56,406 bases of DNA from Candidatus Nanopelagicales bacterium (GTDB lineage Bacteria > Actinomycetota > Actinomycetes > S36-B12), in contig JAFMHB010000007.1 in NCBI GenBank assembly GCA_017854795.1, positions 5,682 through 62,087 of the forward strand, read 5' to 3'. The notes under the pieces were generated by a model. That model was not told where the DNA came from. It made no database searches and saw only the letters and a program-made list of their open reading frames with translations. Made by a program: the position numbers and the translations under genes. Below, piece by piece: positions 17,298 to 31,832 of this stretch (position 1 is its first letter; every line of letters starts with the position of its first letter).

Positions 17298-18278
17298 ATG
17301 AATTCTTTCCCAACTGTTGCAATCGTGATGCCGGTACTTAATGAAGAAGACCACCTCGAGTCAGCGATCCAACGTTTACTTGCCCAGGACTACCAAGGTG
17401 AAATGGTGATCGTTCTTGCCGTTGCCCCATCACGTGATCGCACCGAAGTGATCGCGGCCGAACTTGCACAACGTCATCCGAGCCTGAGAGTGGTAGCCAA
17501 CCCCAGCGGAAGAACCCCTGCGGCGTTGAACGCGGCCATCAGGGCGTCACAATCCGAAGTGGTTGTTCGAGTGGACGGCCACGCGCTCATTCCAGTTGAC
17601 TACATCCGCGTTGGTGTCGAGACTTTGAATCGAAGTGGAGCCGACAATGTCGGTGGAGTTATGGCAGCAAGTGGCTTGACGCCAATGCAAAAAGCGATCG
17701 CCGCCGCAATGACGTCAAAATTTGGTGTTGGCGGGGCAGCATTTCATGTTGGCGGTACCGAGGGTGAAGCACTTACCGTGTATTTGGGTTGCTTTCGTAG
17801 AAGTGCCCTGGAGCGGGTTGGCGGCTACGACGAATCGATGGTTCGAGCCCAGGACTGGGAGATGAATCACCGTATACGTGAAACCGGTGGCACAGTGTGG
17901 TTCACGCCCGAGATGGTCGTGACCTACCGCCCTCGCCCGAGTCTCAGTGCGCTTGCGCGTCAGTATTTCGGATACGGAACGTGGCGCCGAGAAGTTGCTC
18001 GTAGATACCGTGAAACGATCTCACTGCGATATCTAGCCGCGCCCGCACTTGTCCTCGCACTGTGTCTCGGACTTTTTCTGGTGCTCATTGGAGCATTTGC
18101 ATCACAGCAATTATTAGTGTGGGTGGGTCTGGTTCCACTCATTGCATATTTATTGGGAGTAATTGGGGCAAGTGTGATTTCTAGGGCTGGTCGCACTGGA
18201 CTTTTATTACCTTTCGTCTTTCCGGTTCTGCACATTTCATGGGGGCTCGGGTTTCTCATTGGTCGGGCTAAGTCATGA
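17298..18278 (+). CDS. membrane-anchored family 2 glycosyltransferase (ExoA-like)
   Basis: 326 residues. Catalytic domain 1-235: VAIVMPVLNEEDHL, NPSGRTPAALNAAI, VVVRVDGHALIP (DxD-like), GGYDESMVRAQDWEMNHRI. The C-terminal ~80 residues form three or so membrane helices (APALVLALCLGLFLVLIGAF onward). This architecture resembles succinoglycan ExoA-type enzymes that extend lipid-linked sugars at the inner face. The next gene starts within its stop codon (ATGA). Confidence 0.87.
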   Translation: MNSFPTVAIVMPVLNEEDHLESAIQRLLAQDYQGEMVIVLAVAPSRDRTEVIAAELAQRHPSLRVVANPSGRTPAALNAAIRASQSEVVVRVDGHALIPVDYIRVGVETLNRSGADNVGGVMAASGLTPMQKAIAAAMTSKFGVGGAAFHVGGTEGEALTVYLGCFRRSALERVGGYDESMVRAQDWEMNHRIRETGGTVWFTPEMVVTYRPRPSLSALARQYFGYGTWRREVARRYRETISLRYLAAPALVLALCLGLFLVLIGAFASQQLLVWVGLVPLIAYLLGVIGASVISRAGRTGLLLPFVFPVLHISWGLGFLIGRAKS

Positions 18279-19177: not shown

Positions 19178-21221
19178 TCCGCAGGTCTCGATTATCTTGA
19201 TTGGGTACAACGACGCTGATCGTCTACCTGCGGCCTTGGAGTCCCTTACCGCCCAATCTTTTCGTAATATTGAAATTATCGCCGTCGACGATTGTTCAAC
19301 GGACAACTCTGTTGAGTTTTTGCGCGCTGCGGCGCAACGTGATCCGCGGATTCGAATTGAAGTCCTGGCCAAGAACTCTGGTGGGTGCAGTGCCCCACGC
19401 AATCGCGGTATGCAGTTGGCTGAAGCGCCCTTTGTCATGTTCTGTGACTCAGATGACACCTACGACAGGCATGCAGTTCGCAATTTACACACGGCGATCA
19501 ATGAAATGAAGACCGATTTGGTGGTAGGCGCAGCCCGACGCATCGTTTCAAGTACAGGTGAGAAGAAAATTTGGCGACCGGAATTGCACGTGAAGTCCCA
19601 GGTTTTCGAGGGTCTGATTGAAGAGCCGGGGTTATTGTTTGACACCATCTCGGTGAACAAAATTTACCGCACCCAGTTTCTGCTTGAGAACGGAATTGAT
19701 TTCCCTGACGGGCTTCTTTTTGAAGATCAACTTTTTACTCTCAAGTGTTATCTCGCGTCTTCGCGCATTGGAGTGATCGCTGAGGTTGTGTACAACTGGA
19801 ACGTGGAGCGAGATGCCCAGGAAGGTTCCATTACCCAATCCCGAAGTGAGTTGCGCAATGTGAATGACCGCATCGCAATCAATGAATTAATGGACCGAGA
19901 GCTCGATTCCCACCCGGTTTTGGCCCATTACAAAAACCAGAAGTTCCTCCAACATGAACTTTCACTCTACCTCTCGACTCTCTTTGAACTGAGGCAGACG
20001 CAATCAAGTGAACTAATTCAGATTCTTTCCGCGTACATTCGAACTATTCCGATTGAAGACTTTGAATGCTTGCGCCCTGGGCTACGGATTGCTACCTATT
20101 ACCTCCTCCTCGGAGATCAAATGAAGATGCTCAGGGCGCTGTGGTGGGAGAAGGGTGGCGGATTTATAAACACGGAATTGATTAACACGGAATTAGTCGA
20201 AGGGGTAACCAGTTTGTGGTCGCGTGAGGCCACGGAACTATTGGGTCGCCCAGCGACATGGTGGCTTGATGCCAGCGATTTACGCCTCGCTTTGATCCCG
20301 TTTGATCAAAGACGCTATTTCGCGACCATGATCAAAGGGCAAGACTCTGCTGATTGGTTGATCACCTGTGTTGACTTCGCGGGTGACTTACCAGTTGATA
20401 CAGCAGCGCAAGTTATTTTGCGTGAAGCCAGGACGGGGGCACTCATTGCATTTCGCACAACGCCAATTGAGGCTGGCGCCTTTGAAAAGAGTTTCCAAGT
20501 CAAGCTTGATGCAACGAGTGCTGAACTCATTCAGGATCGCGGGATCAACTCGGGTGAACATGGTGTTGTTCAGATTCAATTGACGTGCGCCTTGGGTGTG
20601 AACCGTTCAGATTTACACATTCAAGAAGGGGAGGACCTTCCTGAAGTGTCTTTGAGCAGGTTAGCTTCCCTTGACTGTGCTGATCGCATAGCGTTTGAAA
20701 CGCAACCAGATCGCCGTATTTCCTGGAAGGCCACTGGATCAGCAAAGTCATTGATGGGAGCGGTGCGCAAACTCAGGCGCTCGCGCAATAACAAATCAAC
20801 CCCCTCTCACTTACCGTTGATCAAAGTTGAGGATCGGCCCACGGTTGTGTTCGCGCCCGCGAATCTAAACCCATTTGACAGCAGACTTGAGCGCTTTGAC
20901 ACCCAGGCCTGGATTGACGAATTCGGCGCAGATACGTACCTGCTGATTCCCCGCGAAGTCTTTACGCCGGCTCCCAAACGTTCTCGATTTGCCTATCGGG
21001 GTTATTCCGCTTCCCAACTGAAGGCGGCACTTGCCATTGCAGACCTTGTGATCACGGATCGGCCGGAGTTGATCGGTGATCCAAGGGCAATCATCTTTCG
21101 GAAAGACTTAGGGGCTGCGCGCTACCTGCTACCTCCAATTGAGGTAACCCCGATTGCGGATCAAGGGTTGCTACATGAACTTATTCGAGCACGCCTTGAA
21201 TCACAAGGGGTGCGCAAATGA
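19170..21221 (+). CDS. family 2 glycosyltransferase fused to a TagF-like remnant
   Basis: 683 residues. The N-terminal ~210 residues are a clear GT2: VSIILIGYNDADRLPAALESL, IIAVDDCSTDNS, NSGGCSAPRNRGM, MFCDSDDTY. The middle ~320 residues carry no motif I recognise. The last ~120 residues (TVVFAPANLNPF, TYLLIPREVF, SASQLKAALAIADLVITD) follow the order of CDP-glycerol glycerophosphotransferase C-termini but lack the HG and KPHP motifs, so that part is probably inactive. Similar two-domain proteins occur in Streptomyces teichoic-acid-type clusters (from memory). Overlaps of 8 and 4 nt join it to its neighbours. Confidence 0.78.
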   Translation: MTSPQVSIILIGYNDADRLPAALESLTAQSFRNIEIIAVDDCSTDNSVEFLRAAAQRDPRIRIEVLAKNSGGCSAPRNRGMQLAEAPFVMFCDSDDTYDRHAVRNLHTAINEMKTDLVVGAARRIVSSTGEKKIWRPELHVKSQVFEGLIEEPGLLFDTISVNKIYRTQFLLENGIDFPDGLLFEDQLFTLKCYLASSRIGVIAEVVYNWNVERDAQEGSITQSRSELRNVNDRIAINELMDRELDSHPVLAHYKNQKFLQHELSLYLSTLFELRQTQSSELIQILSAYIRTIPIEDFECLRPGLRIATYYLLLGDQMKMLRALWWEKGGGFINTELINTELVEGVTSLWSREATELLGRPATWWLDASDLRLALIPFDQRRYFATMIKGQDSADWLITCVDFAGDLPVDTAAQVILREARTGALIAFRTTPIEAGAFEKSFQVKLDATSAELIQDRGINSGEHGVVQIQLTCALGVNRSDLHIQEGEDLPEVSLSRLASLDCADRIAFETQPDRRISWKATGSAKSLMGAVRKLRRSRNNKSTPSHLPLIKVEDRPTVVFAPANLNPFDSRLERFDTQAWIDEFGADTYLLIPREVFTPAPKRSRFAYRGYSASQLKAALAIADLVITDRPELIGDPRAIIFRKDLGAARYLLPPIEVTPIADQGLLHELIRARLESQGVRK

Positions 21222-22306: not shown

Positions 22307-22999
22307 CTACAGGTGCGAGTTAGCGCGGGTGAGGTCTTCCTCGAAATCAACTTCCACGGCAAAGAGGTCTGAAATATCAACAGGGCGCACTCGGGTTCCG
22401 TGGGTTTCGATCATGATCTCAATTCCACGTTCAAAATAGTCGTCGTCGGCACAGGCTGCCAGCCCCTCGATCAAAAGTTGCTTGTCTTTGTCGGCCACGA
22501 AGTTGATTCCTACCGACTCGCCGAGGGCGTCAACCACCTGCTTGGAAAGTTCGTTCACAAATCCGTCGGAGTCAACCCGGTATTTGACCTCTTCGTCTCC
22601 CACGGCTGCGGTGTTAACACAGATAATTGATTCGTCTTTGTCGATATATTCTTTAATGCGGTCGAACACACGAGGATCAAAGACGACATCACCATTGAGC
22701 CAGATCACTCCACCGGGACCAGAAAGCCGAAGGGCCTTGAGCAGGCTGCGGTTGGTATTTGTTTGATCGTAAGCCTCGTTGTATACGTATAGGTTATTAG
22801 GGAATGACTCAATGATCAGCTCAAGCTTGAAGCCAATGACCGTCATGACTCGCAACTCTTCACCATAAGCTGCGCTGAGATTGTCCATCTGTTGCCGCAT
22901 GATCGTGCGGCCGTCAGCAAGTGGAGTGAGGGGTTTAGGCCAGGGACGCCCAAGCCGCGTTCCCATTCCTGCGGCCAAAATCACAGCTGTTTGAGTCAC
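22307..22999 (-). CDS. LicC-like nucleotidyltransferase (CDP-alcohol forming, predicted)
   Basis: 230 residues. The N-terminal AVILAAGMGTRLGRPWPKPLTPL is the NTP-transferase loop with the catalytic Arg and Lys; VIWLNGDVVFDPR gives the metal Asp, and FERGIEIMIETH and LFAVEVDFEEDL complete the phosphocholine cytidylyltransferase-like pattern. It would charge a phospho-alcohol with CTP. Two CDP-alcohol phosphotransferases sit 5-6 kb away in the same cluster and could use the product (inference). The start is GTG with TAGGCT 6 nt upstream, although it also follows the TagF gene by 25 nt. Confidence 0.8.
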   Translation of the reverse strand: MTQTAVILAAGMGTRLGRPWPKPLTPLADGRTIMRQQMDNLSAAYGEELRVMTVIGFKLELIIESFPNNLYVYNEAYDQTNTNRSLLKALRLSGPGGVIWLNGDVVFDPRVFDRIKEYIDKDESIICVNTAAVGDEEVKYRVDSDGFVNELSKQVVDALGESVGINFVADKDKQLLIEGLAACADDDYFERGIEIMIETHGTRVRPVDISDLFAVEVDFEEDLTRANSHL

Positions 23000-23024: not shown

Positions 23025-24278
23025 CTAAGACCGAACTTGCCGCACGCGTTGGATCAGGTTTAGAGCAGAGTCGTGTGCGGCGATCTCGGAAGTGATCGCA
23101 GACCAAAACGCCCGAGTACTGCTTCCCTTGGCATTGTCTCCGAAGTAATAGGTGCGCATCCGTGCGCGATCGTCGCCATGCGTATCCATTTCCAGTGCGG
23201 TGGTGATCAGTTCGCCAATGCGTGAAATGGAATTCTGATCAATAACAGCGCATGCTGCAGACATGGGTGAGTCAGCGAGTAATTGAGCGGGGTTAGACCG
23301 GCGGTCGGTGAGCAGAATAGGTGAATTCGGTGTCAAGTAAAGGTAGTCCAGGGTCACGCTTGACACGTCAGAGATGAGTAGGTCGGTTTCGGGCAAAATT
23401 CCCAAGATGTTTGCATTCGGCAGATAGACATGTGGAGCCCCTGCGCTGGAAATCAGGTTGACAATTTTCTTGTGGTTTTCCCGGACGAGTGGATCCGCTG
23501 ACTCAAGTACGCGTGGGTGTGGCTTATAGACCAAACGTGCATGAGGAATTGCCAGCGCCGCTGTGACAATTTGTGGTCCGTAGAGGTCAACCGAGGTGTA
23601 ATTGTTGACTTCGTCCTCACCTTCCCACGTGGGAGCATAGGTAATTGTTACCAATTCACTGTCAGCTATCGGGCTGGCGATATCAAGATCGAGTTGAGGT
23701 CTTCCCACGCTCACCAGGTGGCTCGGATCAAACCACGCAATTGCTGCAGCATGACGATCAATTGCGGCTTGTCCCGCGACGTAAACCTTGTCATAAGCCT
23801 TGGCCTGATTACTCACCATGCAAATTTTGTCGCTCTCACCATGGTTTACGTGAATGTGAACAGCCTGTTGAAATGAGAGCGACTGGAAATTGGTCCAACC
23901 GTTGTTGACATAAATCACTGCATGAAAATCAGCTCGGTCGTACAGGGCCATTAAAATTTCATAGCGGGGCACCAGAAGAACCTGTAGAGATGTTCGGGTG
24001 CGTAATTCGTTGTATGTCTCAAGGTTGCGAACCACAACAATAGTTCGCAGTTCGGTGTGATTTTCAAATACCGGAAGCCACTGGAGCAGTTGATAGAGCT
24101 TTGCGGGTTGATCAGCGAAGTACAGGGCGATATCGGCGTTCGGTACGTTACCCATGTCGAACCCGTCTGGTGCAACCTCCCCAAACTCGCGCAGGCGTCG
24201 GCTCAAACTTCGAGCCGCGCGTTTAGCAAACACGCTCACTTTGCCTGGTTTTTCGGACCCGGCCGCTTTGCTTTCCAC
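23025..24278 (-). CDS. CDP-glycerol:glycerophosphotransferase-type (TagF-like) polymerase
   Basis: 417 residues from the GTG at 24278, chosen because TATCGT lies 7 nt upstream; an in-frame GTG at 24287 is the alternative. Motifs of the family are intact: IHVNHGESDK (HG), TYAPTWEGEDE, LVYKPHPRV (KxHP) and LLISDVSSVTLDYL. Family enzymes transfer polyol phosphate from a CDP-polyol to growing teichoic acid on the cytoplasmic face. Here it may polymerise glycerol- or another polyol-phosphate. It is divergent from the exporter genes, with about 40 bp between the starts. Confidence 0.87.
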   Translation of the reverse strand: MESKAAGSEKPGKVSVFAKRAARSLSRRLREFGEVAPDGFDMGNVPNADIALYFADQPAKLYQLLQWLPVFENHTELRTIVVVRNLETYNELRTRTSLQVLLVPRYEILMALYDRADFHAVIYVNNGWTNFQSLSFQQAVHIHVNHGESDKICMVSNQAKAYDKVYVAGQAAIDRHAAAIAWFDPSHLVSVGRPQLDLDIASPIADSELVTITYAPTWEGEDEVNNYTSVDLYGPQIVTAALAIPHARLVYKPHPRVLESADPLVRENHKKIVNLISSAGAPHVYLPNANILGILPETDLLISDVSSVTLDYLYLTPNSPILLTDRRSNPAQLLADSPMSAACAVIDQNSISRIGELITTALEMDTHGDDRARMRTYYFGDNAKGSSTRAFWSAITSEIAAHDSALNLIQRVRQVRS

Positions 24279-24285
24279 GTGGTGC

Positions 24286-24291
24286 ACGATA
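24286..24291 (-). promoter_or_regulatory. candidate -10 of the TagF-like gene
   Basis: TATCGT, 7-nt spacer GCACCAC, GTG at 24278. Start and promoter were chosen together. Confidence 0.3.
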
Positions 24292-24321: not shown

Positions 24322-25098
24322 GTGCGCGCACTCTGGGAGCACCGCCAGGTACTCCGAATGTTGGTCCTTCGTGACCTGCAGAATCAGTACACCAAATTCC
24401 GGCTCGGTTACCTCTGGTCGCTGCTCGAGCCGTTGGGTATGTCTCTCGTCTTGTGGCTGGTTTTCTCAGTACTCCTGGGTGAACGAGCATTGGGGCTCTC
24501 GCCGTATCTGCTTTTCCTCTCCGTTGCGATCCTGCCCTGGTGGTGGTTCACCAAGAGCGTGAACGCGTCCACCAAGATTTTCCGCCGTGCTCGGGGTGAG
24601 TTGGCTTTCTCGGCGTTGCCCCCTCAAATTTGGGTGATGCGAACGGTGCTGTCGACTTCGGTTGAGTTTATTTTTTCACTTCCCGTGATAGTGCTCGCAA
24701 TCGTGCTCACGAGGGATCTTCCTGGGATCTACATATTGTTTTTCCCGGTTGCAATTCTTTTGCAGTTCCTGCTTCTCTATGGAATCGGTTTACTTGTTTC
24801 TTCTTTGAGTGTTGTTATTCCCGATCTTGCCCGCGTTGTAAAAATCATTATGCGAGCAATGTTTTACCTTTCACCGATCCTTTACTCGATTTCTAACATT
24901 CCCCAGAACCTGCAAACAATCGCAGCCATCAACCCGCTTGTTGGAATCCTCGGCCTGTACCGAATCGGATGGTGGCCAGAGGAACACACCTCGGTCGTTG
25001 CACTCGTGATCTCATTAAGTGTGGCAGCCGCACTATTTATTGCGGGCATTTACACATTTCACCGACTTAAGCCGCGATTATTGAAGGAGGCGAAGTGA
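24322..25098 (+). CDS. ABC-2 type polysaccharide exporter permease (Wzm/TagG-like)
   Basis: 258 residues with six predicted membrane helices, the usual Wzm/TagG size. The N-terminal LVLRDLQNQYTKFRLGYLWSLLEPLGM is the conserved gate-helix/first-helix motif of the family, and MFYLSPILYSISNIP and INPLVGILGLYRIGWW are also typical. It would export the lipid-linked polymer through the membrane. The start is GTG with TAATGT 7 nt upstream. Its stop overlaps the ATPase-like gene start by 4 nt (GTGA). Confidence 0.92.
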   Translation: MRALWEHRQVLRMLVLRDLQNQYTKFRLGYLWSLLEPLGMSLVLWLVFSVLLGERALGLSPYLLFLSVAILPWWWFTKSVNASTKIFRRARGELAFSALPPQIWVMRTVLSTSVEFIFSLPVIVLAIVLTRDLPGIYILFFPVAILLQFLLLYGIGLLVSSLSVVIPDLARVVKIIMRAMFYLSPILYSISNIPQNLQTIAAINPLVGILGLYRIGWWPEEHTSVVALVISLSVAAALFIAGIYTFHRLKPRLLKEAK

Positions 25099-25841
25099 GC
25101 GTTATTGAATTTTCCCATGTGTCGCTTGCCATGCCTCGGACTAAACGCCGACAAGGTTCAGGTCGTAAGCATCGCCTTCGGCGCTTCGCAGGTGAAACAT
25201 CAAGAACCATGGTGCCCGTTCTCGATGACGTGTCCTTTACGGTGAATAAAGGCGACTCGGTGGCAATCGTCAGTGGCAAGCCATTGCTGCGCACATCGGT
25301 GATTCGGCTCGCGGTGGGAACATTGATCCCTGATTCAGGTGCGGTGACGCGCACAGAACGCGTGGTCCCGATGATCGGTATTGCCCGAGCCATGGGTGCC
25401 TCTTTCACAATTCGACAAAATGCCTATCTGGTCGGTGGGCTGCTCGGAATGAGTCCGGCCGAACTCACCGAGAAACTGCCCTCGATCATTGAATTTGCGG
25501 ACTTGGGCAACTACCTCGACCGGCACCTGCGGGGGACACCGACAAGTACTAGGCAACGGCTGGCATGGAGTATCGCCATGGCCGTAGACGCTGATGTTTA
25601 TGCAATTGACCAGACTTTGGTGGTGGGCGAACTTGAATTTCGACAAAAATGCTGGAGCGCGGTGGACACACTGCGTGAAAATGGCGCGACTTTCCTAGTT
25701 TCCTCGGATGGGGCCAAGCAGTACCGCAGATTCTGTAATCGTGGCTTGTATTTCGAACAGGGCGCACTCATTGCCGACACCACGGTTCCCAAAGCACTTG
25801 CCCTCGCGCGTGAGGCTAGGCGGGAGCCCCGCGGGGAATAG
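25095..25841 (+). CDS. Wzt/TagH-like ABC protein with degenerate ATPase motifs
   Basis: 248 residues, aligning end to end with polysaccharide-exporter ATPases (YLVGGLLGMSPAELTEKLPSIIEFADLGNYLDRHL; YRRFCNRGLYFEQGAL). Every catalytic motif is altered. At the Walker A position the sequence is SGKPLLRTS (60-68), with no GxxGxGKS/T and Arg66 at the Lys position. The signature site reads TPTSTRQ. Walker B ends DVYAIDQ with Gln173 for the catalytic Glu. The switch His is Ser204. It keeps its place directly after the permease (4-nt overlap). It probably does not hydrolyse ATP on its own. No normal partner ATPase is in the window. Confidence 0.85.
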   Translation: MSVIEFSHVSLAMPRTKRRQGSGRKHRLRRFAGETSRTMVPVLDDVSFTVNKGDSVAIVSGKPLLRTSVIRLAVGTLIPDSGAVTRTERVVPMIGIARAMGASFTIRQNAYLVGGLLGMSPAELTEKLPSIIEFADLGNYLDRHLRGTPTSTRQRLAWSIAMAVDADVYAIDQTLVVGELEFRQKCWSAVDTLRENGATFLVSSDGAKQYRRFCNRGLYFEQGALIADTTVPKALALAREARREPRGE

Positions 25842-25851: not shown

Positions 25852-27021
25852 GTGTCGGTTTCTTCCACCCCAGCTAACTCCACGCCAGCGAACCCCATTG
25901 GGAAGAATGGCGTCTTGCTCCACGTGGGCGTTCACAAAACGGGCACGACAGCCATTCAGGCGGCTCTAGCCGACGCCCGAGAGGATCTAGCGGCCCACAA
26001 TGTCCGGTACCCCGGCAAATTGCAGGCCCAGCACCGCGGCGCGCTCGCTCTGCTTGGCCGTCCTTGGGGCTGGAATAACCGTGGCGGCGGTGTCATGGAC
26101 CGTGAGCATTTCGATCGATTGGCCAAGCGCACGGTCAAGGCTCCGGGCCGAGTTGTGATCAGTAGTGAGTTTTTCTGCGAGGCAAGTGCTGAACAGGCGC
26201 AGGAAGCGGTTGCAGCATTGGGTGACTCCGGTGCCCGACCTGTTCACGTTGTGGTGACCCTGCGCAATCTGGGCAAGCTTCTACCTTCCTCGTGGCAACA
26301 ATATTTGAAGTACGGAATGACGACTTCCTATGACGCCTGGCTCACCGATGTCCTAGCTACGCCGGGAAGTTCAAAGATGACTCCCACATTTTGGAAACGG
26401 CATGATCATGGAGATGTGATCACTCGTTGGGGGCAAGCGGTAGGCCCCGAGAACCTCACCGTGATGGTGTTGGAAGACGTCCCTCGGAACTATATGTTTG
26501 AAACCTTCGCGCAGTTCCTCGACGTGCCACCGGAAATTTTGAATAGTCGAATGGAGCTCACCAGTAATCGCTCAATGACGGCTGCGGAAGCAGAGGTGCT
26601 CGTCCGGCTAAACAAAAAAGTCAAAAAAACCATGCAATGGACCGACTACGTCACGCTAGTGCGGCGCGGGGTAGCACTCGGCATGGTGGAAGGTCGGGAA
26701 CCGGAATCAAGTGAACCAAAATTACGCACACCCGATTGGGCGCTGGATGCGGCTCAACAAGTAGGCATAGCGAGTGTCAATACAATCCAAAAGTCGGGTG
26801 TGCAGGTATTGGGTAACCTCGATGCACTGACTATTCGGATTGAGTCAACCCCAGATCCAGGCCCGGTTGATCAACTCCCCATTGATGCCGCCGTCACGGC
26901 GATCGAGTCTGTCATAAACGCATCCCGTGAAGATCCAACTTCACGCGCCTTGGCCGGTCGCCTTTACCGACAAACAAAAAAAGATGGAATACGTTCACTA
27001 TTTCGTAAAGAGTCCGAGTGA
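25852..27021 (+). CDS. sulfotransferase-like protein
   Basis: 389 residues from the GTG at 25852; the same frame continues upstream inside the ABC gene, which is rejected. LLHVGVHKTGTTAIQAAL at about 22-39 is the PAPS 5'-phosphosulfate loop (KTGTT at 29-33), and RVVISSEFF plus VVVTLRNLGKLLPSSWQQYLKYG resemble the 3'-phosphate site. The C-terminal ~150 residues are not recognisable. It may sulfate the surface polymer; this rests on the loop and on position. It lies 10 nt after the ABC gene and overlaps the next gene by 4 nt. Confidence 0.75.
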   Translation: MSVSSTPANSTPANPIGKNGVLLHVGVHKTGTTAIQAALADAREDLAAHNVRYPGKLQAQHRGALALLGRPWGWNNRGGGVMDREHFDRLAKRTVKAPGRVVISSEFFCEASAEQAQEAVAALGDSGARPVHVVVTLRNLGKLLPSSWQQYLKYGMTTSYDAWLTDVLATPGSSKMTPTFWKRHDHGDVITRWGQAVGPENLTVMVLEDVPRNYMFETFAQFLDVPPEILNSRMELTSNRSMTAAEAEVLVRLNKKVKKTMQWTDYVTLVRRGVALGMVEGREPESSEPKLRTPDWALDAAQQVGIASVNTIQKSGVQVLGNLDALTIRIESTPDPGPVDQLPIDAAVTAIESVINASREDPTSRALAGRLYRQTKKDGIRSLFRKESE

Positions 27022-28724
27022 GTCGAATAATTAATACGAATGCAGAAATGTCAGTGGTGCTGGCTGATTTACTTACCGCTTTGGAAAATCCTGATTCGGC
27101 AATCATTTTGATCGCCCCGGATTTACTGATTTCACCACTTGTCCTCGGTCCGATCACGGAGAACTCACTCGCAGGAACGTGTGCTGCTGTTCGACCACAA
27201 CGCGACGGAAATCTTCGAATTGCCCACCATGCTGTTAGCGCGGTGGCGACCAGTTTTCATCACATCAACGCTGGCAACGCCCAAAGTGTAGGTGCAATTC
27301 GGATTCATCCTCGTGATTTTCCAGTGGCACTCAGCGCCGTCAGTGAATTAGCCCAGGTAATTGAGGCGGGTGCAATAACCCCAGGTGACTGCGAGGTTAC
27401 CGAGTTGATTTTGGCGGCATTAACCAGATCTCAAATAAACGTTCGGGCAGTGGAGTTAATTGATGCACCGTGGTTCAGATCAACAGAAAATCTTGATGCC
27501 GCCAAAGCTAAAATACAAGTAATGTCGGAGTCCCGTATTCGGGCACTTCAAGCAAATCGAGTCGATGACGGTTTTTATTCAACTTTCGTTGTTCGCAAAC
27601 TTTCCAAACCATTGAGTGTCTTAGCGATCAAACTCCGCATGTCACCCAACTTTGTTACGGTAATTTCATTTATTGTCGGTATTGCGGCCGCATTGAGTTT
27701 TGCCCAAGGGGACCGCTGGGCCTTGGTTCTCGGCGCAGTTCTCCTTCAACTGTCCTTGATTTTGGACTGTGTTGATGGGGAAGTCGCGCGCGCCACGCAC
27801 CGTTTCTCGGTGATCGGTGCGTGGCTTGATGCATCAACTGACCGGGTGAAGGAATATGCCGTTTACGCAGGTCTGGCCGCCGGCGCGGTAGTTACCGGCG
27901 TTGAGTCTCAACTTGCTTGGGGACTCGCATTGATCCTGATGATTGTGCAAACAGCGCGGCACATGGGGGATTACAACTTTGCAGCTATCCAGAAGCTGCG
28001 GGAGGCTGCGCTCCCTCGAGTTTCCCTTCTTGATCCGCATGATCCATGGGGTGAGGGGTACGCCACTTTCTCGGTACGCGTTAATAGCCGATCAGGTCTG
28101 CGTTGGTTTAAGAAAGTGATTCACATGCCCATAGGTGAACGCTGGCTGGTTCTCAGCGCCGTGGCCGCGATTTTCACACCTTTGGCAGCCTTAATCGCCT
28201 TACTTGCCCTGACTTCCATAGCCTGGCTGTACACGCTCGTTGGTCGAGTAATACGAACTAGAAGGTGGGAAAAATCCCCGGTCGGTGTCGTATTGATTAC
28301 CGCGCAACGAGACAACGGTCCCATTCTTGATTTACTTCCTCACGTATTTCGTCGTGAGCCAGCCTCACGTTGGAACTGGGCGAACCCCATGATCAACCGC
28401 CTTATCGAAATGGGCGTTGTGGCTCTCATTGCATTGATTTGGTTCCCGCAGTGGATTACGTTGGCGTTTGGCTACCTGTTCATCGTTGCATATCACCACT
28501 ACGACAATTTGTATCGAGCGTTAGCGGGGTCAAGGGCTCCTCGTTGGATTACCTGGGGAGCATTGGGGCGTGAAGGGCGAACAATCATTGTGGTCATTGC
28601 TTCCTTGGTAGGAATCACGGCTTTTTACGACGCGCTTAACCTCGGAGTAGCGTGGTTGTTCATGTGGTGCGTAATTATTGCTTCGGCTCAATATCTGTCC
28701 GCGCGGAAAGTGACAATCCTGTGA
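27018..28724 (+). CDS. CDP-alcohol phosphotransferase with degenerate nucleotidyltransferase-like N-terminus and DUF5941-like C-terminus
   Basis: 568 residues. The central membrane domain holds the full motif D(x)2DG(x)2AR(x)8G(x)3D(x)3D, beginning DCVDGEVAR at Asp250, with Asp253, Asp271 and Asp275. The N-terminal ~180 residues look like a sugar-nucleotide transferase without its loop. The C-terminus has SPVGVVLITAQRDNGPILDLL and a second set of helices, which I recall as DUF5941 of Streptomyces proteins. It should transfer a phospho-alcohol from a CDP-alcohol to an acceptor at the membrane. The GTG start overlaps the previous stop by 4 nt. Confidence 0.85.
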   Translation: MSRIINTNAEMSVVLADLLTALENPDSAIILIAPDLLISPLVLGPITENSLAGTCAAVRPQRDGNLRIAHHAVSAVATSFHHINAGNAQSVGAIRIHPRDFPVALSAVSELAQVIEAGAITPGDCEVTELILAALTRSQINVRAVELIDAPWFRSTENLDAAKAKIQVMSESRIRALQANRVDDGFYSTFVVRKLSKPLSVLAIKLRMSPNFVTVISFIVGIAAALSFAQGDRWALVLGAVLLQLSLILDCVDGEVARATHRFSVIGAWLDASTDRVKEYAVYAGLAAGAVVTGVESQLAWGLALILMIVQTARHMGDYNFAAIQKLREAALPRVSLLDPHDPWGEGYATFSVRVNSRSGLRWFKKVIHMPIGERWLVLSAVAAIFTPLAALIALLALTSIAWLYTLVGRVIRTRRWEKSPVGVVLITAQRDNGPILDLLPHVFRREPASRWNWANPMINRLIEMGVVALIALIWFPQWITLAFGYLFIVAYHHYDNLYRALAGSRAPRWITWGALGREGRTIIVVIASLVGITAFYDALNLGVAWLFMWCVIIASAQYLSARKVTIL

Positions 28725-29521
28725 AATCAGAAAAAAAGGTGCACCCGACTATTGAGCAAATCAAGGAAGTGTGCCAGCCGCCCTCTGTGCGTGATCGAAA
28801 GAATTCCGAGCATTGGGTCGCTGACGTATATCTACGAGACATTTCGCCGTATCTAACAAGTCTTCTATTGCGCACCTCGATCACGGCAAACGGTGTTACG
28901 TATCTAATGATCGCGACGGGCGCGCTTGCCGGTGTAGCGCTCCTCATTCCCGGAATGCCCGGAGCCAGCTTGGCCTTGCTGCTGGGACAAATGCAAATGC
29001 TGTGGGATTGCTCTGACGGTGAAATTGCTCGGTGGCGTGGAACTTCTTCACCCAAGGGTGTCTTTCTGGATCGAGTCGGCCACTATGTTGCTGAAGCATT
29101 CATTCCTCTTGCACTTGGACTGCGCGCCGCAGGCTTCCCAGACTCTGGCTGGCTGGATTCACCGTGGCCATTGATCGGGGCCTTATTGGCTTTAATCATT
29201 ATGTTTAATAAAGCACTCAACGACATGGTTCACGTTTCGCGTGCGTACAACAACATGCCCAAATTGGAAGACAAGGAATCTGTTGGCGTGCCACGTGTTT
29301 CCGGGTTGCGTCGGATTCGTTCCATCGCTCGTTTCGTGCCATTTCACCGTGCCTACCATTCGGTTGAACTCACGATCTTGGCTTTTATCGCCGCAGTAGG
29401 CGACCTGTTCACGGGAGATTTGCAGGTCACCCGCATTTTGGTGGGAGGTCTTGCGATCCTTGGTGTAATAACAATTATTGGTCACTTCATGTCGATCATG
29501 ACTTCCAGCAAGTTGAAGTGA
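28721..29521 (+). CDS. second CDP-alcohol phosphotransferase, His in place of the last motif Asp
   Basis: 266 residues from the GTG at 28721 (GTGA overlap with the previous stop). The motif begins DCSDGEIAR with Asp96 and Asp99; after eight residues come Gly113 and GVFLDRVGH, giving Asp117 but His121 where the fourth Asp, the proposed base, is expected. About five or six membrane helices. Either a different chemistry or a partner subunit of the neighbouring enzyme is possible. It overlaps the next gene by one nucleotide (TGATG). Confidence 0.83.
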   Translation: MKSEKKVHPTIEQIKEVCQPPSVRDRKNSEHWVADVYLRDISPYLTSLLLRTSITANGVTYLMIATGALAGVALLIPGMPGASLALLLGQMQMLWDCSDGEIARWRGTSSPKGVFLDRVGHYVAEAFIPLALGLRAAGFPDSGWLDSPWPLIGALLALIIMFNKALNDMVHVSRAYNNMPKLEDKESVGVPRVSGLRRIRSIARFVPFHRAYHSVELTILAFIAAVGDLFTGDLQVTRILVGGLAILGVITIIGHFMSIMTSSKLK

Positions 29522-30399
29522 TGGCAACACCAAACACCCCACCGCAATTTGGTGTTGTCATTTTGACCATGGGGAAACGACCCATTGAATTGCGTACAGC
29601 AATTGAATCGGTGATCTGCCAAGTCAATGTTGACACCGAGATAGTCGTGGTAGGTAATGGCTGGAAACCAATTGATTTGCCCGCAGGAGTTAAAGCGTTA
29701 GCGCTTCCCGAGAATGTCGGTATTCCAGCGGGACGCAATGCGGGTGTGAGTCAGGTTCGTGGAGACATTCTGTTCTTTCTCGACGACGATGCTGAACTAC
29801 CGGACCCGCATTTCTTGGAGCGAATGGCAGCCTTGCTAGCGTCTCGGCCCGAAATCGGACTCATTCAGCCGCGAGTTGTTGATCCAACAGGAGTTGCTGC
29901 GCCCGGGCGCTGGGTACCCCGACTGAGAGTGGGAGATCCGGCAACACCTGGTCCGGCTACTTCGCTGTGGGAAGGCGCAACGGTAATTCGACGTTCAGTC
30001 TTTGATGCATGTGCGGGTTGGCCCGAAGAGTTTTTCTACGCACACGAAGGAATCGACCTAGTGTGGCGAGTATGGGATTCAGGTTATATCCCCTGGTATG
30101 CCGGCGACATCGATGTGTACCACCCGGTAATTAATCCATTGCGACATGAAGAGTTCTACCGAATGAATGCGCGAAACAGGGTGTGGCTTGCCCGACGCAA
30201 CCTTCCGGTGGTCCTCGAGCCGCTATATGTCGGTAGTTGGGCCGGATTAACCATGTTGCGGGTTCGTGACTCCTCGGCTCGCAAGGCGTGGCTTTCGGGA
30301 ATGCGTGAAGGGATGTCTGTGCGACCGAGTGGACGAAAAGCGATGAAGTGGAAAACCGTCTGGGCGATGACCAAAGCGGGTCGACCGCCTGTTATTTGA
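29521..30399 (+). CDS. family 2 glycosyltransferase (rhamnosyltransferase-like)
   Basis: 292 residues from the ATG at 29521; a GTG three bases earlier is equally close. GT-A motifs: FGVVILTMGKRPIELRTAI, EIVVVGNGW, NVGIPAGRNAGVSQVRGDILFFLDDDAEL (metal DDD), WEGATVIRRSVFD and FYAHEGIDLVWRVWDSG. The EEFFYAHEG pattern resembles wall rhamnosyl-/galactofuranosyl-transferases. It is the last gene of the export/CDP-alcohol operon and converges with the LCP gene (26 bp apart). Confidence 0.88.
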   Translation: MATPNTPPQFGVVILTMGKRPIELRTAIESVICQVNVDTEIVVVGNGWKPIDLPAGVKALALPENVGIPAGRNAGVSQVRGDILFFLDDDAELPDPHFLERMAALLASRPEIGLIQPRVVDPTGVAAPGRWVPRLRVGDPATPGPATSLWEGATVIRRSVFDACAGWPEEFFYAHEGIDLVWRVWDSGYIPWYAGDIDVYHPVINPLRHEEFYRMNARNRVWLARRNLPVVLEPLYVGSWAGLTMLRVRDSSARKAWLSGMREGMSVRPSGRKAMKWKTVWAMTKAGRPPVI

Positions 30400-30425: not shown

Positions 30426-31832
30426 TTAACTCGCGCAGTAACTTTCATCGGCGGTATTAATGTTTGCTGTCTTGTCCTTGAGTGCCTCACTGATTTGGAC
30501 GGCCTTAGTGCCAGTGAAGTCAGGACCTATGACGAGTTGAAGTGTTGATCCGGTTCCTGCCACAGGCTCCTGAACTGTTGCACCCGCGGAGTACGCCAAT
30601 GTTTTGGCTGAGTTGTCCCACTCGGGATCATAGATAAGTGTTGTGGCAGCAACGGGATCGCCATTTTTGACATTGACGACGATGAATCCTTGTTGGCGCA
30701 ATGCTTTCTTAGCTTTTTTGCCCGCGCCCTTGACTCCGGTGCCATTGATCACTTCAACGCGAATATTTTCAGGAACCGTGCGCAGTAGCGGTTGATCGTT
30801 GGCTGCTTTGGGAGGCCACGGCGTGTCATTTTTGATCGCATTGAGAAGTGGCTTGGCCTTTTTCTTGTTCATCAAGACATTTGCGCCATCACCGGCGGGG
30901 TACCAAGGCATTGTGGTGAAGGTGATGTTGGAGGGACTCAGATCCTTCATGCTCACTACCAATTCGCGGAGGTTGTCAATATTGGCCAACTGCGGATCGG
31001 CGGTGAGTGACTCGGTCGCGGCATTGAGCACACCCAGCAGCGCGACAGGATTGAGTAGCGTCCCGCTGGAGAGCACCTTCTTGGCCATCGAGGAAAGGAA
31101 AGCTTGCTGGCGCCTAATGCGTGAGGTGTCCGAACCGTCGCCCAGCGTCTTACGAGCACGCACGAATGCGAGCGCCTCTTCGCCTGAGATCGTGTGCTTT
31201 CCGGCGCTGAGTTTGAGACCACTGAGTGGATCGTTGACCGGCTCGCTGAGGCAGATTTCGACACCACCCACGGACTCGGTGATTGCCTTAAACCCACCGA
31301 AGTCGACCACCATAAAATTGTCGATCTTCATCCCGGTCATATTTTCAACGGCTTTGAGGGTGCAACCGGGGCCGCCACGCGTCATTGCTTCGTTGAACTT
31401 GCCAGTTCCACCCTTGACACTCTCGCCATTGGCGTTCTTGCATGTTGGTAGGTCAATGAGCGTGTCACGGGGAATACTCACGGCGACCGCTTGGCTTCGA
31501 TCAGCACTGACGTGCAACAGGATTGTTGTGTCTGAGCGCTCAGCTGTACCAAATTTGGCAGTGCTTCCGTATCCTCTATTGTCCTTGCCGGCGCGGGAGT
31601 CACTGCCCATGAGCAAGACGTTAAAAGGGGCGGTTTCCCCTGTTACCTCGTCAATAACGATTGATTCGCTGCTGGTCACAGCACTTCCAGTTTGATCAGA
31701 GACGTCAAGGGCAGTGATGTTGCCCTCCAGTTGACCAAGGACCGAGGTGACACCTGCTCCAACAGCCGTCACGGCCAAAATCGCACCCGATGCGACAGCA
31801 GCGACAACCTTTGGCCAACTTCGGTTACTCAA
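30426..31832 (-). CDS. LytR-CpsA-Psr (LCP) wall-polymer ligase with LytR_C domain
   Basis: 468 residues, TTG start with AAGGA 5-6 nt upstream. One N-terminal membrane helix (about 8-30), an extracellular LCP domain with FNVLLMGSDSRAGKDNRG, RSDTTILLHVSADRSQAVAVSIPRDT, VVDFGGFKAITESVGGVEI and LAFVRARKTLGDGSDTSRIRRQQAFL, then a LytR_C domain (IRVEVINGTGVKGAGKKAKKAL). LCP proteins move a lipid-linked glycopolymer to peptidoglycan, so this is the natural last step for the neighbouring cluster. It holds the same relative place as the mycobacterial LCP gene near TIGR03089 and manB. Confidence 0.93.
   Translation of the reverse strand: MSNRSWPKVVAAVASGAILAVTAVGAGVTSVLGQLEGNITALDVSDQTGSAVTSSESIVIDEVTGETAPFNVLLMGSDSRAGKDNRGYGSTAKFGTAERSDTTILLHVSADRSQAVAVSIPRDTLIDLPTCKNANGESVKGGTGKFNEAMTRGGPGCTLKAVENMTGMKIDNFMVVDFGGFKAITESVGGVEICLSEPVNDPLSGLKLSAGKHTISGEEALAFVRARKTLGDGSDTSRIRRQQAFLSSMAKKVLSSGTLLNPVALLGVLNAATESLTADPQLANIDNLRELVVSMKDLSPSNITFTTMPWYPAGDGANVLMNKKKAKPLLNAIKNDTPWPPKAANDQPLLRTVPENIRVEVINGTGVKGAGKKAKKALRQQGFIVVNVKNGDPVAATTLIYDPEWDNSAKTLAYSAGATVQEPVAGTGSTLQLVIGPDFTGTKAVQISEALKDKTANINTADESYCAS

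Follow-up and report, generated by a model that had tools for sequence, protein, structure and literature searches.

The closest described counterparts of the locus analysed here are two polymer exporters, the wall teichoic acid exporter TarGH/TagGH and the O-antigen exporter WzmWzt of A. aeolicus. In WzmWzt, the connection between β1 and β2 of the nucleotide-binding subunit (NBD) is a gate helix with an electropositive pocket, for which binding of the undecaprenyl-pyrophosphate head has been proposed (PMC6379404), and TarGH has a gate loop at the β1-β2 position (PMC7078476). The gene pair at our locus shares with TarGH/TagGH the NBD fold, the β1-β2 gate loop, the type of permease and the pairing of the genes, as well as an operon with a CDP-glycerol-type transferase and an LCP ligase. 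However, TarH has all of the ATP motifs and its exporter is described as ATP-driven (PMC7078476), whereas the pair in the window (the whole 56,406-nucleotide stretch of DNA that was analysed) has lost every ATP motif together with an Arg of the coupling helix. With WzmWzt the pair shares the gate helix, the Wzm LG/W/P/D motifs and its best fold match (6amx, the Wzt NBD; TM 0.81), but the A. aeolicus ATPase is canonical and its Wzt has a C-terminal carbohydrate-binding domain that is absent from the window NBD.

Partial precedent is provided by ABC exporters in which one of the two sites is degenerate (TM287/288, BmrCD, CFTR and MsRv1273c/72c; PMC7756269, PMC12038006); there too, degenerate motifs have been kept by evolution. 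In these exporters, however, the other site is catalytic and the NBDs are heterodimeric or fused, whereas at our locus the sole encoded NBD is dead in every motif. SbmA/BacA (SLiPT) has an ABC-type transmembrane fold that works without an ATPase and is energised by the proton gradient (PMC13316013). It is an importer with no NBD and with another transmembrane fold, whereas the window system keeps a pseudo-enzyme NBD and an ABC-2 permease. We found no description of a fully degenerate Wzt in the literature collection that was searched.

The two genes of the pair are as follows.

24322 to 25098, plus strand: Wzm/TagG-type ABC-2 permease, constant partner of the degenerate NBD (258 aa; PF01061 at 50.8 bits; KpsM/galactan permease models)
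25095 to 25841, plus strand: degenerate Wzt/TagH-type NBD, a predicted pseudo-ATPase (248 aa; homology searches, motif alignment, AlphaFold2)

The NBD frame starts with GTG. As a preliminary description of this DNA had reported, it is open throughout, and its first 4 nt (25095 to 25098, GTGA) overlap the end of the permease gene with its stop codon. The homology to Wzt-like exporter ATPases claimed in that description was borne out over residues 42-234 (TarH 6jbh, E=2e-26; Wzt 6m96, E=3e-26). The NCBIfam models for TagH and galactan Wzt matched at 1e-24 to 4e-22, far under the cut-offs of these models, and Pfam ABC_tran gave 14.4 bits, under its 25-bit cut-off. The AlphaFold2 model has an intact and confident fold (mean pLDDT 86, pTM 0.81) with a less certain gate segment, and its top PDB fold matches are Wzt and TagH NBDs. 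Together with the adjoining Wzm/TagG-type ABC-2 permease and an electropositive β1-β2 gate segment, homology in sequence and fold places the NBD in the Wzt/TagH family; it is a homologous member of that family but, judged by its motifs, not a functional ABC ATPase. The positions of the former motifs are these.

25269 to 25298, plus strand: former Walker A (residues 59-68), with Arg66 in the column of the catalytic Lys
25536 to 25553, plus strand: former ABC signature (residues 148-153), YSSGM having become xPxxxR, with R153 invariant (53/53)
25596 to 25613, plus strand: former Walker B (residues 168-173), Asp172 kept and Glu replaced by Gln173
25707 to 25709, plus strand: former switch-His column, Asp205 in the alignment to canonical sequences

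When aligned to canonical sequences, the Walker A region of the window NBD reads S60-G-K-P-L-L-R66-T-S68 and the signature reads T148-P-T-S-T-R153. The pattern GxxGxGK[ST] is absent from SGKPLLRTS, and its Lys is found in none of the 53 degenerate sequences; SSGM or LSGGQ is likewise absent from PTSTR, the signature Gly surviving in one of the 53. Moreover, the catalytic Glu (Gln173 in the window) is kept in 8/53 and the switch His (Asp205 in the window) in 3/53. In intact homologues the Walker A Lys, signature Gly, switch His and catalytic Glu are retained in 30 of 30. The motif losses first reported for Walker A, the signature and Gln173 were thus recovered, but the switch His falls on Asp205 rather than on Ser204; two further losses, of the Q-loop Glu (Gly95) and of the A-loop Phe (Val40), had not been recorded. 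Within the degenerate clade, column entropy is 2.08 bits for Walker A, 2.61 for the Q-loop and 1.71 for the signature, set against a mean of 1.48 over all columns, and the switch column (mostly Asp) lies near the mean at 1.41. Because the A-loop aromatic, the P-loop Lys and the signature are all missing, the earlier wording of a non-hydrolysing nucleotide-binding subunit is probably an overstatement.

Chance can be excluded as the source of the motif losses because there is a conserved family of degenerate orthologues. The NBD gene occurs in all 11 other genomes of the window's genus (the orthologues in its other species are all degenerate, one being a C-terminal fragment). Across the family, 55 of 85 genomes have the NBD gene and 52 have the permease, each of the two being spread over 10 of the 14 genera, and the two genes are adjacent in all cases where the contig permits. 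The 53 distinct degenerate NBD sequences (from draft assemblies, the relatives mostly MAGs) are without stops. Comparisons between relatives give a dN/dS of 0.05-0.12 for the NBD, and most permease pairs have values of 0.03-0.05. Intact motifs in close relatives, which the preliminary description had considered, were found only outside the family, all orthologues of the genus and the family being degenerate.

In a tree built with the motif columns left out, the degenerate NBDs group in a single clade (SH-aLRT 100) that reflects one change; its stem is long (1.16 changes per column) and its sister is intact. The sister group, fully canonical and with a homologous permease, is made up of genus g33 of family f7 and of two genomes, G088 and G093, of family f3. 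In f7 (seven loci) and in G093 the intact pair stands in the same gene order, with a CDP-alcohol transferase, a glycosyltransferase and an LCP gene behind it (some of these contigs end early); in G088 the pair is intact, the surroundings are different and there is no synteny. Sampling 395 genomes of the class turned up no member of the degenerate clade outside the window's family. All 20 homologues that were retrieved from other families in the class have intact motifs, each with a homologous permease beside it. Given the single clade and the intact outsiders, the loss of ATP chemistry was thus a single event, which goes back to the ancestor either of the whole family or of those genera that have the pair. 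The window's family is one family of aquatic actinobacteria in which the pseudo-ATPase NBD is kept beside its channel across at least 10 genera, and we regard both its pseudo-ATPase nature and its conservation as very nearly certain.

The part of the NBD that would face the lipid-linked substrate has fared differently from the former ATP motifs.

25128 to 25214, plus strand: β1-β2 gate-helix segment (residues 12-40), rich in Arg and with a net charge of about +9 across the clade, R18, R19 and R30 being invariant (location of the gate helix from PMC6379404)

The mean net charge of this segment is +9.0 in the degenerate clade versus +6 to +8 in the intact sister. By column entropy it is better conserved in the degenerate clade than the former ATP motifs: at 1.32 bits it lies below the clade mean, as do residues 103-120, which follow the Q-loop, at 0.88. 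In addition, R107, R153 and W158 have become invariant in the degenerate clade, which argues for a function that has changed and is still under selection.

Two sites were compared in the permease.

24403 to 24408, plus strand: LG motif (L28-G29), kept in 49/49 along with W32, P37 and D168
24622 to 24624, plus strand: residue 101 in the TM2-TM3 coupling-helix loop, Thr, Pro or Leu where the NBD is degenerate (coupling-helix position from PMC7078476)

The Wzm/TagG motifs (the LG motif, W32, P37 and the TM4-5 Asp, D168) are kept in all 49 scorable partner permeases of degenerate NBDs. By contrast, the coupling-helix Arg that follows a conserved Pro is present at position 101 in 29 of 29 permeases with an intact NBD and in none of 50 partners of degenerate NBDs; since only 11 of 19 more distant Wzm proteins have it, this Arg marks the close relatives and not the whole Wzm family. 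Permeases with an intact NBD share 48 conserved positions; the partners of degenerate NBDs keep 36 of these, and five flip outright, Arg101 among them. The coupling helix transmits NBD motion to the channel (PMC7078476), so with its Arg gone the motor and the transmission seem, from the alignments, to have been lost together. Arg27, Arg252 and Glu36/Glu221 of the permease are more fixed in the degenerate clade, and a search for a proton- or ion-coupling site among newly conserved charged residues gave nothing convincing. (The AlphaFold2 model of the permease, with a pLDDT of 45, was set aside.) Purifying selection, the single clade and the conserved gate-helix segment, neighbours and permease speak for two ideas of the preliminary description, that the NBD is not in random decay and that it may only gate or bind substrate.

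The pair sits in a conserved operon with the following members.

17298 to 18278, plus strand: glycosyltransferase 2, conserved operon member
22307 to 22999, minus strand: MobA-like nucleotidyltransferase, usual neighbour
23025 to 24287, minus strand: CDP-glycerol glycerophosphotransferase-like protein of teichoic-acid type (PF04464)
27018 to 28724, plus strand: CDP-alcohol phosphotransferase with DUF5941
28652 to 29521, plus strand: CDP-alcohol phosphotransferase, also in the operon with the intact NBD
29518 to 30399, plus strand: glycosyltransferase 2
30426 to 31832, minus strand: LytR-CpsA-Psr (LCP) glycopolymer-peptidoglycan ligase

The combination of glycosyltransferases, a MobA-like protein, CDP-glycerol-type and CDP-alcohol transferases and an LCP protein points to a wall glycopolymer that contains phosphate and must get across the membrane. 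Judged by these neighbours, the substrate would be teichoic-acid-like. (The two CDP-alcohol phosphotransferases stand in tandem, the first joined to DUF5941.)

The mechanism best supported by these observations, which we put at about even odds, is that the pair still exports without ATP; the fuller explanation, in which a conserved pseudo-ATPase of the Wzt/TagH type serves as docking and gating subunit of an ATP-independent glycopolymer exporter, is given the same even chance. The ancestor would have been a canonical ATP-driven Wzm-Wzt exporter in an operon for an LCP-ligated, teichoic-acid-like glycopolymer. ATP chemistry was lost once, while the NBD fold, the pairing with the permease and the basic gate segment were kept by selection. 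Most likely, two NBDs, presumably as a dimer, now form a fixed platform for docking and gating, in which the Arg-rich gate segment would bind the lipid-linked polymer by its (pyro)phosphate head and hand it to the still canonical LG-loop and channel of the permease. ATP would then not be needed for translocation. The membrane potential could drive it, for example (the polymer being anionic and the inside negative), or the polymer may be drawn across by its synthesis on the inner side and by LCP ligation on the outer. That TarGH and WzmWzt are described as ATP-driven counts against ATP-free transport, as does the outcome of the search for a proton- or ion-coupling site in the permease. The more specific statement, that an ATP-driven polymer exporter turned once and family-wide into an ATP-independent flippase or channel (driven by potential, synthesis or ligation) with dead NBDs as substrate gate, is tentative and in our estimate falls somewhat short of an even chance. 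If true, a conserved pseudo-ATPase would be the only NBD encoded for this ABC-2 polymer exporter. The system would be a natural experiment on the roles of an NBD beyond burning ATP (gating, docking of lipid-linked substrate) and on ATP-free polymer movement by Wzm channels; the intact orthologues, which stand in the same gene order, make a comparison of before and after possible.

The strongest competitor, which we consider unlikely though by no means negligible, is that the pair no longer transports and instead acts in the membrane to scaffold, sense or regulate the glycosyltransferases and CDP-alcohol transferases of the cytosol, the polymer leaving by another route. The loss of the coupling-helix Arg along with the motor fits this explanation, as do the newly invariant R107, R153 and W158, which suggest a new interaction surface, but the permease has retained its channel and LG-loop motifs. 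It also fits that the operon occurs without the pair in the three g12 genomes inspected (G071, G073 and G076) and in G013, where the nucleotidyltransferase and CDP-alcohol transferase genes no longer have the pair between them, so that the polymer can either be made without the pair or be exported by another system. Pointing the other way, a second canonical Wzt of one class occurs in 8 of 10 genomes that have the operon without the pair versus 1 of 54 that have the pair (Fisher p = 9e-8), as if export had been taken over. Since these genomes represent just two independent losses (g12, and G013 within g2), the replacement is suggestive of a role of the pair in export but no proof of it. (The pairless operons are loci L233, L235 and L237 of g12 and L234 of G013, and a second canonical Wzm-Wzt lies elsewhere in these genomes.) In three g11 genomes (G057, G063 and G066) the pair has been relocated to another glycan cluster; at L242-L244, with L137, L139 and L146, the relocated degenerate pair stands beside glycosyltransferase genes like those at 21218 and 19170.

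A composite ATP site is formed by the Walker A of one subunit and the signature of the other. A canonical NBD from elsewhere in the genome might drive the permease of the window, either in a mixed dimer or in place of the pseudo-NBD; we consider this rather improbable, and less likely than the foregoing. In type I exporters, pairs of a degenerate and a consensus NBD are known (PMC7756269, PMC12038006). Among the 26 near-complete genomes in which the pair occurs, 18 have another Wzt-class ATPase, including that of the window (G000). The preliminary description had proposed to look for a second, intact Wzt, and G000 has one other Wzt, at C7. However, the C7 Wzt has a permease of its own, and the other 8 of the 26 genomes (G002, G004, G006, G017, G046, G063, G066 and G079) have no further Wzt-class NBD at 163 bits or more, the genomes being MAGs of 90-99% completeness. 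Furthermore, family members without the pair also own canonical Wzts, the association being absent or negative, and no dedicated intact NBD was seen near the pair in the conserved operon. An ATPase encoded elsewhere, one of the earlier proposals, is thereby weakened; a heterodimer, another of them, is weakened further, because the degenerate NBD has lost Walker A and signature alike and each composite site of a mixed dimer would lack one or the other, leaving both dead. A non-Wzt ABC ATPase may be the motor of the permease. The three other ABC ATPases of the window's genome that were inspected as candidates were set aside, each adjoining its own permease: L003 (hydrolase-fused), L004 (DrrA-like) and L005 (metal importer). 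The first of these (G000:C6:8753-9355) is an ABC-2 type NBD behind an alpha/beta-hydrolase-like domain in one frame of 845 aa.

Altered chemistry, in which the degenerate NBD would still bind and slowly hydrolyse nucleotide, or just bind it, with Arg in place of the P-loop Lys, is very unlikely: Arg66 is found in 42 and Asp172 in 33 of the 53 degenerate sequences, but the A-loop aromatic, P-loop Ser, signature Ser/Gly, Q-loop Glu and switch His are mostly lost too, and the former motif positions are more variable than the rest of the NBD. A recent pseudogene or an error of sequencing or assembly, conceivable given draft assemblies and MAGs, was ruled out with next to no doubt by the 53 stop-free orthologues under purifying selection.

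Three further observations were made on the locus and its relatives. At L047, in a MAG (ME-08apr19-199) labelled Bifidobacterium breve, the NBD is 88% identical and syntenic, and the label looks wrong. The ORF downstream of the NBD, at 25853 to 27021 on the plus strand (called from 25708, the start being probably near 25853), carries HVGVHKTGTTAIQ, which resembles a sulfotransferase-type P-loop; Pfam matches are marginal. Finally, at positions 9000-10871 of L241 (G051:C3:703001-723000) a canonical Wzt NBD and a sulfotransferase-like stretch, PLFLIGNPRTGSTLLSTVLLQHP, lie in a single open frame, possibly a fusion.
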